From Pelobacter sp. (GTDB taxonomy: Bacteria; Desulfobacterota; Desulfuromonadia; Geobacterales; Pseudopelobacteraceae): a stretch of DNA of 64,000 nucleotides. Of the stretch, positions 13,950 through 62,562 are shown one piece after another. The stretch is taken from positions 1-64,000 of the forward strand of contig JAVBXN010000018.1 in assembly GCA_030824515.1 (NCBI GenBank). The letters run 5' to 3'. Position 1 is the stretch's first letter. Each line of letters starts with the position of its first letter. A model generated the notes under the pieces. That model was not told the DNA's origin. It was given only the letters and a program-made list of their open reading frames with translations, and did no database searches. The position numbers were made by a program, and so were the translations under genes.

Positions 13950-16313
13950 TTACCATGGCTTGCTGCCATGACAGTAACTTGCGCAGGTACGTGTAGTCGC
14001 ATTCCATACGCTGAGACTGACATCTTTGGAACCGTTCATGTGCGTTGCCGCATTCACGGTCGTGCTGCTGTAACCCGTGCCATGGCATGTGGCGCAACCA
14101 TAGCCCTGGTTTGCGTGAAACACGTGTTGACCCAGGGCGGGCGGAATGGCGTGGCAGGTGCCGCAGGTTTGCGCCGGCGGAGCATTCGTGGCAGCGCTGG
14201 CCTGGGACGAGGCCAATCCTTCACCGGCGCTGTTTGCAGCAGTGACGATGTAGTAGTAGGTGGTGCCGGCGGCCAGACCGGTCTGGATGTAGGGACTGGC
14301 AGCATTAATGATCTTTGCGCCGCTGGTTTTTGTCACGCCGGATGTGGTTGCGTAATAGATGTTGTACGATGTTGCGCCGGAAACCGCCGACCAGGAAACG
14401 CTGACCTGGTTAGCGCCACCGGCAGCGCTGACACCTGCCGGAGCAGCAGGAATCGTCACCACCGGTGCATTGGTGGCGGCTGAGACCTGTGCCGAAGCGG
14501 CGCTCTGTCCCGAGGCATTAACCGCGGTCACAATGTAGTAATAGGTGGTGGATGCAGCCAATCCGGTTTGGATATAGGGACTGCCGGCAGTTGTAATCTT
14601 TGTTCCCGCAGTGGTAACGCCCGAAACCGTGGCCCAGTAGATATTGTACGAAGTAGCGCCGGAAACTGCAGTCCAGGAGATGGATACCTGATTTGCAGCG
14701 CCGCTGGCAGTAACGCCTGTCGGAGTTGCCGGAACCGCGGGAGGCGCTGCATTGGTGGTCGCCGTGACCTGGCTTGAAGCGACACTTTCGCCGACACTGT
14801 TGGCCGCCGTGACAATGAAGTAGTAGGTAGTGCCTGCTGAAAGTCCGGTTTTAACATAGGGACTGCTGACACCGGCGACTTTGGTTCCGCTTGTTTTGGT
14901 TACGCCGTTGCTTGTGGACCAGTAAACGTTATAAGAGGCTGCTCCGGTAACCGCGGGCCAGGTTATGGTCGCCTGGTTGGCGCCGCCAACGGCAGTGGCA
15001 CCGTTTGGCGCCGCTGGAACTGTCGGGGTCGGCACCGCTGCAAGCGTGGTCGCCGCGACCTGGACGGAAGCAGCGCCTTCACCGGCACTGTTCACCGCGG
15101 TAATGATGCAGTAGTAGGTGCTGCCGGCGGTGAGACCGTTCAGAACCGCAGGAGTGGTGGCGCTGGTAATTCTGGTTCCGTTAATCTTGGTTACTCCGCC
15201 GGTAGTAGCATAATAGACATTATACGACGTGGCGCCATTAACCGGGCCCCATGTGAGTGTCACCTGGTTGGTGCCGCCTGTTGCTGTCACACCGGTTGGT
15301 GCGGCCGGGAGTGTCGGTACCGGAGGCGTCGAAGCGGTGACTGCCGAGATCTGGGCCGATGCGGCGCTTTCGCCGCTGCTGTTAACGGCGGTTACGATGT
15401 AGTAATAGGTGGTACCGGCAGCCAGACCGGCCTGGACATATGGAGTTGAAACGGAGGAGATCTTAGTGGCGCTGGTTTTGGTCACGCCCGAAGTGGTTGC
15501 GTAGTACAAATTGTAGGAGGTCGCATTACTGACGGAAGTCCAGGAAAGTGTCACCTGTCCTGTGCCGCCAACGGCGGTCAAGCCGTTCGGAGCTGCTGGA
15601 ACGGAGGGAGCCGGTGGCAGAGAGCCTCCATCGAAGATACCGTTGGCAATGTCGCTGACCAGGCCGGTGAAAATCACGGCTCGGCTTTTCTTGTTGATGA
15701 TTGACAGTTGCCCGTTTGACACGGTGATTTTTACATTGTCGAACATGTCATCCAGGTCGAGATGATTGGCAATGTAGCGGCTCGTGATCGGATTGGTGTG
15801 ATCCGAGCTGTACTGCTTGAGGAGCGGCTCCAATTTGGCAAGCAAGATCGAGACGGTCTTCGAGAGATTGTTTCTGATTCTGTGATTTTTGTCGGAATCC
15901 GATTTTTCATAGACATCGTCCGGATCGTCATCACCTGCAGCACTGGCTACGATTACATTGGATAGCGGGTTGATATTGGCAATGCCCGGACCATCTGCAT
16001 ACGAGTTCAACTTATATACCGTCTCGTCGGCGCTTCCTGTAGCCTGAAGCACATACGGCGCCTTCATGCCGGTGACATCAATGGCAAAGGAACCATCGCT
16101 GGAGATGACAGTGGTTTTTTGTTTCGCGGGAGTGGATGAATCCTTCAGACTTACCTGCCCTGACAGCGGGGAGCCGACGACAGCCTTGCCACTGACCACC
16201 TCTGAGGAAACACCTCCCGAGCCACCTCCGCCACAACCGGCAAGCATGAGTCCGAAGGCCATAAGGGAAAGTGCAGTTATGGCTGCAAATGATTTTCTGA
16301 CGAGTTTTTTCAT
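13950..16313 (-). CDS. FN3-repeat lipoprotein with C-terminal heme-binding (CxxCH) domain
   Basis: 787 residues. The signal peptide ends in the lipobox LAGC (C27), followed by a glycine run. After a helical N-domain come five fibronectin type III domains of about 90 residues, each with PAAP-type linkers and the TYYYIVTAVNSAGE strand. The last 77 residues carry CGTCH, CATCH and CASYCH: two standard c-type heme motifs and one with three residues between the cysteines, a pattern found in Geobacter cytochrome-like surface proteins. A surface or extracellular electron-transfer role is plausible. AAAGGAG precedes ATGATG, and the second ATG at 16313 has the best spacing. Two riboswitches lie upstream. 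Confidence 0.82.
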   Translation of the reverse strand: MKKLVRKSFAAITALSLMAFGLMLAGCGGGGSGGVSSEVVSGKAVVGSPLSGQVSLKDSSTPAKQKTTVISSDGSFAIDVTGMKAPYVLQATGSADETVYKLNSYADGPGIANINPLSNVIVASAAGDDDPDDVYEKSDSDKNHRIRNNLSKTVSILLAKLEPLLKQYSSDHTNPITSRYIANHLDLDDMFDNVKITVSNGQLSIINKKSRAVIFTGLVSDIANGIFDGGSLPPAPSVPAAPNGLTAVGGTGQVTLSWTSVSNATSYNLYYATTSGVTKTSATKISSVSTPYVQAGLAAGTTYYYIVTAVNSSGESAASAQISAVTASTPPVPTLPAAPTGVTATGGTNQVTLTWGPVNGATSYNVYYATTGGVTKINGTRITSATTPAVLNGLTAGSTYYCIITAVNSAGEGAASVQVAATTLAAVPTPTVPAAPNGATAVGGANQATITWPAVTGAASYNVYWSTSNGVTKTSGTKVAGVSSPYVKTGLSAGTTYYFIVTAANSVGESVASSQVTATTNAAPPAVPATPTGVTASGAANQVSISWTAVSGATSYNIYWATVSGVTTAGTKITTAGSPYIQTGLAASTTYYYIVTAVNASGQSAASAQVSAATNAPVVTIPAAPAGVSAAGGANQVSVSWSAVSGATSYNIYYATTSGVTKTSGAKIINAASPYIQTGLAAGTTYYYIVTAANSAGEGLASSQASAATNAPPAQTCGTCHAIPPALGQHVFHANQGYGCATCHGTGYSSTTVNAATHMNGSKDVSLSVWNATTRTCASYCHGSKPW

Positions 16314-16520
16314 CATATCTCCTTTCATTACTATCCTGCTGAAATTGTGGCAATAATCCATCGCTGTGCTTTCTTTCATCTGCTCTCCCCTATCCACCGG
16401 CTGGACTGAAATCAGATCAGCAGCTGGTCGATGTAATTGCGATCAAATCCCCTTGCCCATCAGGAGATAGCGCGCGCTTTTTCACGTTTGCAGATTCCGG
16501 TGACTCCCGGAAATGGGCGC

Positions 16521-20152: not shown

Positions 20153-21724
20153 TCAGGAAGGATTTCTGAAACAGTAGGGATCTCTTTCACAGAACGGGTC
20201 AAGACCCAGGCTGGCGGTTATCGCCGGGCAGCCACGACAGACGGCATTCAGGTGACATCCGGCACAAGCGCTGCTTCCCGAACGATATCGACCGGCGGCA
20301 TCGGAGAGGTAAATATTTTCCAGGCTATCGGTAATGATATTGCCTATCGGTGACGGGAATTTGCGGCAAGCATGCACCTCGCCATCGGAAAGAATTGATA
20401 CGAAGTTGAAAGCAGCGCCGCAGCCGTAACCGGCACACCCACCGAACAGCTCTTTTCCGCTCCGCTCCAAGACCGTGTTAAGCAGGTTGTCCTTGAGACC
20501 CAGTACGGTATGTGACTCAATTGACCTGACATACTCCTCCAAAAATATGCGATACTCAATCGGCGTCGGCAGTTCAAGAGCCGCTCCTTCTCCGAACAGT
20601 GCCAGGCGATTGAAGGCCATGCCGCCGGTGATTCCCTCAAGCTCGGCAGCCAGCGGAATAACCTGATCCATATTATGCCGGGTCAGGGTCAGCATGACCA
20701 TATTCGGCACTCCCATCTCGGTCAGCATCCTCAGGAAGTCGACCGTCCTCCGATAGTTATCCGCACCGCGAATCCCGTCATTGTGCGACTCCAACCCCTC
20801 CAGGCTGACCTGGTAGTAAACCGGCATCCGTATCGCCACGATCCGCTCCATGTCGGCACGCTCGACCGCATTTCCAAGAATGGCAATCATCAGTTCGCGC
20901 TCGGCAGCAGCCCGGTAAAGTTCGAAAAAATGCGGGTACAATAGCGGATTTCCACCTGTCAGGGAAACCTGGCCTCGCACAAAGCGGCTGCGGCAGAAAG
21001 AGCCCAGCTCATCCAGCAACGACAGGGCCCTGTCAAACGGAAACGCGGCGCGGTTGGTGCGGTCATAGCAGTGACGGCAGTTAAGATCGCACTGCTGGGT
21101 CAGGTGCCACTGCAGGGTGAAGACATCTGCCACGGATTTATTTTCATCCTGACCGGGAACGAACGCTTCACGACGAAGCGCCGATGGCGGTGAAAGCACA
21201 AGCCCCTTCCAGGCCGCTTCCCGCATGATCGCATCTATCTTGCCGGCCGGGACTGACGACTCTCGAGCAACATCATTCGGGTCAAGTTCTTCAACGTTGA
21301 TCTTGATGGCCAGCAGATCGCACGACTCGGCTGCCTGCACTCGGACACGGCCGGTCGCCGGTTCCCGCCACACGAGAATATATTCATTTCCCGGCTTTAC
21401 ACGCGCAAGGTCACGCCGCTTGGATCGGGTGAGCAGATTAACCAGATTGGTCCAGACGACCGGAATAATCTGCAGGGTGGGATTAAGCATTGGTTTATCT
21501 GTTGCTTCCGGTATCGGATCAGCAGTCTGAGCCTGAAAACCGGCAAGTTCAATATGGGCGAGCCCGGGAAGAAATGGCGAGACTCCGGGCTCACCCAAAT
21601 CGTTAAGAACAGCCGGAAAGTCGGTCGGTTCCAAGCCATCTCCCGCATTGTCGAGTATCCGCTGCCAGACTTTAACGCCAAGCAAGGCGCGACAGCACGG
21701 AAATACTTCCGATAAGTTGATCAT
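20153..21724 (-). CDS. radical SAM/SPASM maturase of a selenobiotic-type peptide
   Basis: 523 residues. Residues 1-200 look like a winged-helix peptide-recognition region; the radical SAM core starts with C212-x3-C216-x2-C219 (QQCDLNCRHCYDR), which binds the 4Fe-4S cluster. The C-terminal SPASM part (about 430-515) has many cysteines (GCAGYGCG, HACRKFP, CAGCHLNAVCRGC) for auxiliary clusters. This architecture is that of SPASM enzymes modifying ribosomal peptides. It fits the selenobiotic-peptide maturase family described in Geobacter because the two-Sec peptide lies 69 bases upstream. A 7-codon ORF (MIGAITR) after AGAAGG has a TGA that overlaps the ATG, so translation may be coupled. Confidence 0.8.
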   Translation of the reverse strand: MINLSEVFPCCRALLGVKVWQRILDNAGDGLEPTDFPAVLNDLGEPGVSPFLPGLAHIELAGFQAQTADPIPEATDKPMLNPTLQIIPVVWTNLVNLLTRSKRRDLARVKPGNEYILVWREPATGRVRVQAAESCDLLAIKINVEELDPNDVARESSVPAGKIDAIMREAAWKGLVLSPPSALRREAFVPGQDENKSVADVFTLQWHLTQQCDLNCRHCYDRTNRAAFPFDRALSLLDELGSFCRSRFVRGQVSLTGGNPLLYPHFFELYRAAAERELMIAILGNAVERADMERIVAIRMPVYYQVSLEGLESHNDGIRGADNYRRTVDFLRMLTEMGVPNMVMLTLTRHNMDQVIPLAAELEGITGGMAFNRLALFGEGAALELPTPIEYRIFLEEYVRSIESHTVLGLKDNLLNTVLERSGKELFGGCAGYGCGAAFNFVSILSDGEVHACRKFPSPIGNIITDSLENIYLSDAAGRYRSGSSACAGCHLNAVCRGCPAITASLGLDPFCERDPYCFRNPS

Positions 21725-21779
21725 CGCGTGATGGCACCGATCATAATCCTTCTCTTGGATCCGCTTTCCGGTAAGGTAC

Positions 21780-21797
21780 GTAGCGCGACCGCGCTAC
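21780..21797 (-). other. SECIS-like hairpin for the second UGA (Sec92)
   Basis: On the minus strand two perfect 8-bp arms (GTAGCGCG and CGCGCTAC) flank GT, which can also fold with a GGTC loop. The stem starts 14 bases after the TGA at 21812-21814, and the apical G/U lies about 22-24 bases away, within the usual range of bacterial SECIS elements. The stop codon TAG is inside the 5' arm. Confidence 0.6.
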
Positions 21798-22087
21798 TTG
21801 GTTGAACCGCCTCAGCCACTTTTCCCTGGTACTTCCTTGGGTTTCTGTCCCTCTTTGCCGGCAGAGTCTTTTAGACTTTTCTTCGTTTTTACGGCTTTTT
21901 TATCGGCCTTTACCGCGGATGTCACCTTCTTGAACGTCGCGGTCTTAGCCTTTGGGGCGCTCCCGGCGCCCGCCTTGCCTCCTCAACCGGATTCTGCAGC
22001 CAGGGCTGGCGCCGCAAGTGTCGTGCCTGCTACCAGTCCGGCAATCCCCATACCGGCAACAAGACTTCTAATCATGTCCTTTTCCAT
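21794..22087 (-). CDS. selenobiotic-type precursor peptide with two selenocysteine (TGA) codons
   Basis: 97 residues if two TGA codons are read as Sec (U35 at 21983-21985, U92 at 21812-21814). Both sit in SG-U-GG contexts (ESGUGGKAG and KSGUGGSTK, the last at the C-terminus). Residues 1-31 look like a signal-type leader (LVAGMGIAGLVAGTTLAAPALA); the stretch between the Sec residues is very lysine-rich. Each TGA is followed by a strong hairpin. Without recoding the product is a 34-residue stub. The radical SAM maturase follows 69 bases downstream. A usable AGGTGG site precedes the ATG. This matches the selenobiotic peptide family. Sec rather than stop is inferred from context and repetition. 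Confidence 0.78.
21955..21971 (-). other. SECIS-like hairpin for the first UGA (Sec35)
   Basis: Minus strand GGGCGC, loop CGGGA, GCGCCC: a 6-bp GC-rich stem starting 11 bases after the TGA at 21983-21985. A G lies in the apical loop, as in bacterial SECIS elements. It is inside the coding region, as needed for an internal Sec codon. Confidence 0.55.
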
Positions 22088-22258
22088 GTTGTCACCACCT
22101 TTCCGAACAGAATCAATAATAGTGCATTCATTTTACCGATATATTTTTGATTATCAATCTTATTAACAAATAATATTCTGTTTATTATTAATCGAATTTG
22201 CCAATTGAATACAAATCTCAAGCCATTCAAACAGTCCGGTTTCCCGACAATTTTTCCG

Positions 22259-22287
22259 TTGACATTTCTCGGCTAGAATTGATAAGG
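22259..22287 (+). promoter_or_regulatory. candidate promoter for the PxxKW-protein gene
   Basis: A perfect TTGACA (22259-22264), 17 bases, then ATAAGG. The -10 is poor; the position (about 38 bases before the ATG) is reasonable. Confidence 0.35.
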
Positions 22288-22325
22288 TTATTTTTCATTC
22301 AAGAACAAATTCAGGAGGAAGAAGC

Positions 22326-22625
22326 ATGCAGTGTCAGACAGTACTTCCAGGTATCGAGTGTACCTTTTGGGGAAAACAGGGTTGTATTTTTACAGGTGGT
22401 TCTTGTCAGGTTATTGAAGAAAACTGTGAAGGATGCGACCGGATCGTAACCGGCACCATCGGCCAGGTGTGCAGCGCATACCCGGCGCCAGCCAAGAAAT
22501 GGGTCGGCGGCATCTGTAATTTTGCTTCGCACGTGAAAGTAGAGATCAAGGTGGACGACACCAAGGTCAACCCGCTCAAAGCATCCAAAAAAGCTTCCGG
22601 TGGTTCGGCCAAGAAGAAAAAGTAA
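22326..22625 (+). CDS. PxxKW-type cysteine-rich protein
   Basis: 99 residues. The eight cysteines (C3, C12 and onward through CQVIEENCEGC and ICNF) are concentrated in the first 70 residues, and YPAPAKKWVGGICNF carries the PxxKW signature. The tail is lysine-rich (KKASGGSAKKKK). Members are known mainly from deltaproteobacteria, and I know of no function. AGGAGGA lies upstream of the ATG, and a strong terminator at 22650-22679 follows, so it is a monocistronic gene. Metal or cluster binding is possible but not shown. Confidence 0.75.
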   Translation: MQCQTVLPGIECTFWGKQGCIFTGGSCQVIEENCEGCDRIVTGTIGQVCSAYPAPAKKWVGGICNFASHVKVEIKVDDTKVNPLKASKKASGGSAKKKK

Positions 22626-22649
22626 TCCTTACGTACATTGCTGCTTTCA

Positions 22650-22679
22650 AAGGGGAGAATTAACATTCTCCCCTTTTTT
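22650..22679 (+). terminator. intrinsic terminator after the PxxKW gene
   Basis: AAGGGGAGAAT and its complement ATTCTCCCCTT flank TAAC, followed by TTTTTT. The NUDIX gene starts 16 bases further on, so it would depend on read-through or a promoter within the hairpin region. Confidence 0.85.
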
Positions 22680-22694
22680 ATTCCTGGAGGCCCC

Positions 22695-23147
22695 ATGTCT
22701 TATAATGCCCTCACCTGCCAAACCTGTGGTTCTGAAGTAAAACAGTACCGTAATCCGTTTCCAACGGTTGATATAATCATAGAAATGGACAACGGTATAA
22801 TTCTGATAGAGCGCAAAAATCCGCCCTATGGCTGGGCGCTTCCCGGGGGATTTGTCGATTACGGAGAGAGTTTGGAGAGTGCTGCCATTCGTGAGGCTCT
22901 TGAGGAAACATCTCTTACCGTGTCGGATTTGAGTTTATTGGGTTGCTATTCCGATCCGTCCCGCGACAGCCGGATGCACACAATCTCCACTGTATTTGTC
23001 GGAACCGGCCACGGCACGCCACAGGCTGCCGATGACGCGACTAACCTTGCCTGTTTCAGGCTGTACGAGCTGCCGGAGCAACTTTGTTTCGATCACTCCA
23101 GAATACTCGCCGACTATGTAGCCAGGAAATCACACCTGCAAAGTTGA
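22695..23147 (+). CDS. NUDIX hydrolase
   Basis: 150 residues. An N-terminal TCQTCGSEVKQYRNP segment may bind zinc, followed by the NUDIX box GGFVDYGESLESAAIREALEETSL, which has the GX5EX7REUXEEXGU pattern in recognisable form (E at positions of metal binding; the last motif position differs). Such proteins hydrolyse nucleoside diphosphate derivatives. The substrate is unknown. The start at 22695 has CTGGAGG upstream; a longer frame lies across the terminator. It overlaps the end of the convergent GGDEF/EAL gene by 18 bases. Confidence 0.88.
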   Translation: MSYNALTCQTCGSEVKQYRNPFPTVDIIIEMDNGIILIERKNPPYGWALPGGFVDYGESLESAAIREALEETSLTVSDLSLLGCYSDPSRDSRMHTISTVFVGTGHGTPQAADDATNLACFRLYELPEQLCFDHSRILADYVARKSHLQS

Positions 23148-62520: not shown

Positions 62521-62562
62521 AATAAAAAAGCCCGGTGCACGTAAGCACCGGGCTTTTTTATT
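62521..62562. terminator. bidirectional intrinsic terminator between the exported protein and korC
   Basis: Perfect 18-base arms (62521-62538 and 62545-62562) around a 6-base loop, with T-tracts on both strands. It separates convergent transcripts. Confidence 0.92.

Follow-up and report, generated by a model that had tools for sequence, protein, structure and literature searches.

The window (the whole 64,000-nucleotide stretch of Pelobacter sp. DNA that we analyzed) encodes what is, judging by family profiles, a further member of the known sbtA-sbtM family of seleno-RiPPs. We consider it very likely that the two genes form a RiPP cassette in which RNA hairpins would guide the insertion of selenocysteine (Sec) at UGA-35 and UGA-92 of sbtA, SbtM would modify the peptide, and the product would be exported. 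The features are:

21794..22087, minus strand: sbtA, 97-residue precursor with stop codon TAG (TIGR04081, 31.5 bits against a cut-off of 30.5)
22087-21794, minus strand: the two ends of SbtA by translation, MEKDMIRSLVAGMGIAGLVAGTTLAAPALAAESGUGGKAGAGSAPK...VPGKSGUGGSTK
21995..22087, minus strand: leader, residues 1-31, with a basic start, a hydrophobic stretch and an AxA-type end; putative signal peptide
21983..21985, minus strand: UGA codon 35, putative Sec-1 (frame translation and alignment of nine loci)
21955..21971, minus strand: SECIS-like hairpin 1, GGGCGC-CGGGA-GCGCCC, which overlaps the A-GAGSA-P codons (fold and covariance model)
21812..21814, minus strand: UGA codon 92, putative Sec-2 (frame translation and alignment of nine loci)
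21780..21797, minus strand: SECIS-like hairpin 2, GTAGCGC-GGTC-GCGCTAC (fold and covariance model)
20153..21724, minus strand: sbtM, 523-aa radical SAM/SPASM maturase (TIGR04082, 688 bits against a cut-off of 350; Pfam Radical_SAM and SPASM)

A sequence-only reading of this DNA had described a minus-strand frame of 97 codons with two TGAs in a shared SG-TGA-GG context, and a radical SAM gene 69 bases downstream. Upon re-translation, the coordinates, the frame, the TGA positions, and the context (SG-UGA-GG at both codons) were all as claimed, and the gap between sbtA and sbtM (21793-21725) measures 69 bases. The observation of two in-frame UGAs with hairpins and a maturase is confirmed. The SbtA leader profile TIGR04081 is exceeded by one bit only, relative to its curated cut-off; an SGUG-type core motif is present in this sbtA, which adjoins sbtM. 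SbtM aligns to TIGR04082 along its full length (residues 7-519 on profile positions 1-516). The cassette's neighbors are trpE/trpG-like genes (putative, as read from the sequence), a PxxKW protein, and a NUDIX gene. A divergent PxxKW/DUF6811 Cys-rich protein (22326-22625, plus strand) adjoins sbtA. Farther away, an 815-aa frame (13950-16397, minus strand) has repeated domains, with CxxCH-like motifs towards its C-terminus.

The family has names in NCBIfam: TIGR04081 is the SbtA precursor, and TIGR04082 is the SbtM maturase of a thio(seleno)oxazole RiPP. The literature cites Lewis et al. 2021 for the chemistry of SbtA and SbtM. Given these names, those citations, and an entry in the catalogue of a 2026 review, the sequence-only reading overstated matters when it called the structure, Sec count, and modification of the peptide largely uncharacterised. 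The table of that review (PMC13188914) lists TIGR04081 as a selenobacteriocin with the motif SGUG and the number 2, so this kind of peptide was already known. In passages of PMC12668002 and PMC12538549, the SbtM product is placed among the thiooxazole RiPPs and is grouped with them by its absorbance near 305 nm. The window pair shares with the SbtA/SbtM thio(seleno)oxazole RiPPs the leader, the SGUGG motif, the maturase, the gene order, and the number 2 of the review's table, and nothing of substance sets it apart. Across the family, we found 1-5 Sec codons in the Sec forms, as well as all-Cys and mixed forms and lipobox-like leaders.

Selenocysteine at UGA-35 and UGA-92 is well supported by comparison with related loci. 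We aligned nine loci: the window, seven loci from the same genus, and one from another genus of the same family. (L097, which is from the same genus and whose contig begins inside sbtM, was left out.) In the codon alignment of 106 columns, TGA occurs in those two columns only and in nine of nine loci, with no other in-frame UGA. Thus the homologs do not end at residue 34, and the recurrence of both TGAs speaks against sequencing error. Across the nine loci, pN/pS was 0.35 before the UGAs, 0.32 between them, and 0.15 after them (the last from 5 codons only). Directly past UGA-35, pS was 0.44 over 12 codons, versus 0.78 in the remaining middle part; low pS at this place is expected if the RNA is also under selection. 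The source genome has selA (617 bits), selB (361 bits), selD (383 bits), and tRNA-Sec (75 bits), so the Sec machinery is present. Its selD (L176; G000:C33:135104-136030, plus strand) has one in-frame TGA and is probably itself a selenoprotein gene.

Each UGA is followed by a candidate SECIS hairpin. Hairpin 1 begins 11 bases past UGA-35 and hairpin 2 begins 14 bases past UGA-92, and the stop codon TAG (21796-21794) sits in the 5' arm of hairpin 2. Their values (6 bp, CGGGA, 17 nt, and -12.2 for hairpin 1; 7 bp, GGTC, 21 nt, and -12.2 for bases +7 to +48 for hairpin 2) fall within the bacterial SECIS constraints of PMC13188914, section 5. The sequence-only reading had the first stem and both distances right, but the 8-bp arms that it gave to the second hairpin require a 2-base loop; with the loop GGTC, there are 7 bp. 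Folded singly, the hairpins are not exceptional compared to shuffles (z = -0.03 for hairpin 1 and -1.40 for hairpin 2), and for a longer stretch after UGA-35, the minimum-energy fold differs from the simple hairpin. An Rfam search of 21000-22700 with E up to 1 gave one match, which was under its gathering score, and no SECIS family.

We then compared the hairpins across the family. Within the order, SbtM scored over its cut-off in 24 of 141 genomes; the figures are 35 of 277 for the class and 39 of 395 for a sample of the phylum (overlapping sets). A scan of species genomes gave 259 relatives, and we kept the best 80. The 164 loci came down to 124 distinct ones, 80 of them with a named record. 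A leader profile, which was built from some of the same loci that it then searched, found 117 precursors (115 distinct) in 105 of the 124 loci. Re-inspection of 13 of the remaining 19 loci gave three more precursors. This leaves 16 of 124 loci with no precursor found; in six of them, which were inspected once, the upstream sequence is no longer than 224 bases, and one of the six (L071) shows a partial precursor. Nearly all of the precursors (110 of 117) lie upstream of sbtM, within 1.3 kb and on the same strand.

By a crude count, 85 of the 115 distinct precursors are Sec-only, 17 are mixed, 12 are Cys-only, and 1 is neither. A Sec-containing SbtA has 1-5 Sec codons, mostly in SG[U/C]GG-like motifs. 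UGAs in such a context number 0 in 13 precursors, 1 in 8, 2 in 38, 3 in 40, 4 in 12, and 5 in 1 (n = 112, with L118, L151, and L122 dropped; some of the higher counts include doubtful codons).

By our rule, a hairpin has at least 5 bp, a G in the first two loop bases, and a start 8-20 bases on. Such a hairpin follows 240 of 271 UGA sites, whereas the figures are 9 of 88 for Cys motifs and 735 of 4460 for control codons; because related loci are not independent, these counts, like the covariation counts below, overstate the number of events. Among the 31 UGA sites without a hairpin by this rule, some are tandem UGAs and some are stops that were read through by the script. Within peptides that mix Sec and Cys (L118, L151, and L122 were dropped), hairpins follow 31 of 33 UGAs versus 2 of 31 Cys sites; several of the Cys are lipobox positions. 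One of those two Cys sites is the terminal SGCSG motif of L073, where a SECIS-like hairpin stands behind the Cys codon, as if a change from Sec to Cys was recent. In L056, L065, L114, and L172, UGAs lie three to five codons apart, and these may have a common downstream hairpin.

The stems also covary. We drew 70 hairpins (40 internal ones from a pool of 160 and 30 terminal ones from a pool of 60, with sites that have another UGA within nine codons excluded), removed 12 by eye, and used the other 58 for a covariance model; none of these are from the window's genus, and six loci of the same family are included. Among the 58 aligned hairpins, 7 of 7 pairs had changed on both sides, with a covariation score of 0.512, versus 0.212 in shuffles. 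With all 70 hairpins, the score was 0.521 versus 0.227 in shuffles, and pairing holds in 84.9% of cells; of 500 shuffles, 7 had double changes in as many as 7 pairs.

Across the 64 kb of the window, the two UGA sites are the model's two best matches (E = 6.9e-5 and 0.0017). The model also recovers 16 of 16 UGA sites in eight relatives at E up to 0.11, along with one weak other match. At E up to 1, it is silent in 12 control stretches: the selD of the source genome, seven loci of the Cys type, and four stretches (two of them overlapping) from loci in which no Sec precursor was recognised. Since there is no match at selD despite its in-frame TGA, the model is family-specific and does not serve to test for SECIS elements in general. 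Seven Trichlorobacter-type loci, of which five were in the training set, have 26 UGA sites; the model marks 21 of these and overlooks the first UGA of each tandem pair. It marks no Cys motif of the all-Cys paralogue that five of the seven have, and it marks 3 weak other places. A share of the full model's score stems from UGAGGCGG letters. A hairpin-only model ranks the window sites first and third, instead of first and second, and the site that it places ahead of hairpin 2, at 62524, resembles an intrinsic terminator, which shows that the shape of a hairpin is not specific by itself. A genome-wide scan with the hairpin model gave three matches among the 150 of 2238 candidates that were scored. 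The best is hairpin 1 of the window, and hairpin 2 is not among the matches listed. At the second (L179), there is no credible selenoprotein frame; the third is L180.

UGA is normally a stop codon and the hairpins are unremarkable when folded singly, but a decayed gene or sequencing errors are hardly credible and are contradicted by a UGA pair that is conserved in nine loci from separate assemblies, with no further in-frame stop, with purifying selection, and with matches of the covariance model at both window sites. What the sequence-only reading proposed, a two-Sec peptide with SECIS-type hairpins and a radical SAM/SPASM partner, is instead supported by conservation, by the model matches, and by the family profiles.

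Cys homologs, which that reading had suggested looking for, did not turn up among the nine close loci. There are all-Cys relatives elsewhere, including seven in genomes without detected Sec decoding. The Sec and Cys forms appear to sort largely with the presence of Sec decoding. For the seven all-Cys loci (L134, L152, L161, L164, L168, L151, and L118), selB was over the cut-off in none of the genomes (two have weaker matches), and tRNA-Sec was found in none; these absences are soft, as most assemblies are drafts and the absence of the tRNA holds only among the candidates scored. (L118 and L151 were classed as all-Cys by hand, before the selB search, as their only UGAs look like ordinary stops.) In contrast, selB was over the cut-off in 17 of 18 Sec-type genomes, and the exception (L125) has tRNA-Sec, which was found in 6 of the 7 named Sec-type genomes tested. 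Against a simple Sec/Cys rule, genome G136 has only an all-Cys SbtA, yet both selB and tRNA-Sec are present. L055, whose all-Cys precursor was found on re-inspection, is outside this comparison.

In five loci (L087, L088, L106, L108, and L110; L106 is Trichlorobacter thiogenes), a second, all-Cys SbtA lies upstream of the Sec SbtA, with one SbtM. This second SbtA has 3-4 SGCGG-type motifs plus KCPKC. And in two loci (L083 and L115, from genomes G127 and G134), a divergent SbtM (about 545 bits) has no recognised SbtA nearby, and selB and tRNA-Sec are present.

Our comparison suggests that the RNA hairpins shape the SbtA peptide's own sequence. The internal hairpin translates in frame as GA[G/V]S[T/A] or SAVST, and a segment of the GAGS/SAVST type lies at most 11 residues after 138 of 169 internal Sec, versus 2 of 86 internal Cys motifs. 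We infer that this segment is present mainly for decoding. There are 86 terminal Sec sites, of which 82 have a hairpin, and in 43 of these 82 the stop codon overlaps the hairpin; the window's sbtA is of this type. The stops at the 86 sites are TAG (46), TAA (27), TGA (11), and other (2), as raw counts with no baseline computed.

The SbtA leaders resemble export signals, and the peptide is probably exported. In all of the leaders (115 of 115), the start is basic and there is a hydrophobic stretch, although this is partly by construction, as the leader profile comes from the same loci. A lipobox-like Cys is present in about a third of the leaders (32 of 115 by a strict pattern and 37 by a loose one), which suggests anchoring; the window leader has an AxA-type end in place of this Cys. 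In the Olavius algarvensis Delta 4 endosymbiont (L163:7542-7544), the lipobox Cys position of SbtA, which is Cys in a relative (L147), is a UGA (TLSAUATGK), and it is not followed by a hairpin at the usual distance. Signal peptides are described as rare among bacterial RiPPs in a passage of PMC12452194, and lipidation of an MNIO-modified peptide is reported in PMC12636315. The titles and abstracts that we searched mentioned neither lipoboxes in SbtA nor SbtA repeats shaped by hairpins.

In SbtM, the radical SAM Cys triad (C212, C216, and C219) is nearly invariant across 39 sequences, and eight other cysteines, as expected for a SPASM domain, are invariant (C430, C435, C453, C487, C490, C496, C499, and C518). 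The predicted structure has a pLDDT of 88.8, and the nearest folds by Foldseek are the sactipeptide maturases CteB (5wgg), SuiB, and SkfB. These share the overall radical SAM/SPASM fold and the long N-terminal part, but are just 17-18% identical to SbtM in the Foldseek alignments, and they make thioether links and are not known to form rings from Sec. The N-terminal part of the SbtM model has strands (85-131) and then helices (134-173) that look like a peptide-recognition domain; Pfam gave no match to the first 173 residues.

The conserved frame, the covarying hairpins, the Sec machinery, and the family membership were observed directly, and with these we propose how the cassette works. Ribosomes would decode UGA-35 and UGA-92 as Sec, each guided by its own downstream hairpin, the first inside the coding sequence and the second across the real stop codon. 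SbtM would bind the SbtA leader through its N-terminal part, as a peptide-recognition domain, and would turn the Sec of each SGUGG motif into a selenooxazole-type ring, if the family name and the citations are a guide to its chemistry. The leader, which is like a signal peptide, would then take the product through the general export route, which we propose because no dedicated exporter or protease recurs beside the pair. When we clustered 1364 neighboring frames of at least 90 codons from around the 124 loci (named by reading their sequences), there was no consistent third gene beside sbtA-sbtM. What the clusters did include were response regulators (in no fixed position), trp genes (in the local clade), antisense frames of sbtA, and, at 11 loci, a MacB-like ATPase.

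As to function, our leading guess, which we hold at somewhat less than even confidence, is a role in metal binding at the envelope, like that of the captophorins (bufferins, oxazolin, and fontiphorin, which are made by MNIO enzymes). We favor it because of the parallels in thiooxazoles, signal peptides, and lipidation. Captophorins are described as having a thiooxazole-type ring on repeated Cys motifs behind signal-peptide leaders, some of them predicted to be lipidated, and PMC12452194 and PMC12636315 report Sec signal peptides for bufferins and oxazolins. Similarly, the SbtM product is named among RiPPs with thiooxazoles that absorb near 305 nm, and the 1-5 Sec codons of SbtA, for the most part within SG[U/C]GG-like motifs, come after a leader that resembles an export signal. 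In this reading, SbtA would be the precursor of a periplasmic or lipid-anchored peptide that binds metal, an anaerobic selenium counterpart of these MNIO-made peptides. However, the analogy is structural only: copper binding is a feature reported for captophorins, which differ from SbtA in their enzyme class, in having a partner protein, and in using Cys instead of Sec. The enzyme adjacent to sbtA is a radical SAM protein and not an MNIO, and no gene for a partner such as PME1 stood out among the neighboring frames. Also, among the frames of at least 90 codons at the 124 loci, we saw no gene for metal handling that recurs beside the cassette, and the window's neighbors are the trpE/trpG-like, PxxKW, and NUDIX genes.

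We also considered that the product might be an antimicrobial, a secreted selenium-containing bacteriocin, as implied by the name selenobacteriocin in the table of PMC13188914. A RiPP with an export-type leader would fit this. But the frames of at least 90 codons at the 124 loci include no obvious gene for immunity, for a dedicated exporter, or for a peptidase (there is the MacB-like ATPase in 11), and the lipobox-like Cys in a third of leaders suggests anchoring, so we think that a bacteriocin is unlikely.

The family-wide pattern of decoding and export is what this comparison adds, and the window is a clean extra member. This pattern can be tested: there is usually one hairpin per UGA, within a narrow range of spacing, and the stop is often within the last hairpin; the Sec and Cys forms largely follow Sec decoding; and the leader is like that of an exported protein or a lipoprotein. 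More tentatively still than the envelope role, we suggest that SbtA peptides are widespread, exported, often lipid-anchored, multi-Sec metal-binding peptides of anaerobes, oxygen-free selenium counterparts of the captophorins, with GAGS/SAVST repeats shaped mainly by the need for SECIS elements. If this is true, then decoding, and not the function of the peptide, shapes much of the SbtA repeat. sbtA would be a natural system for studying how several UGAs are read in one small mRNA, and its comparison across the family gives a concrete hypothesis for how selenium may benefit a peptide natural product.
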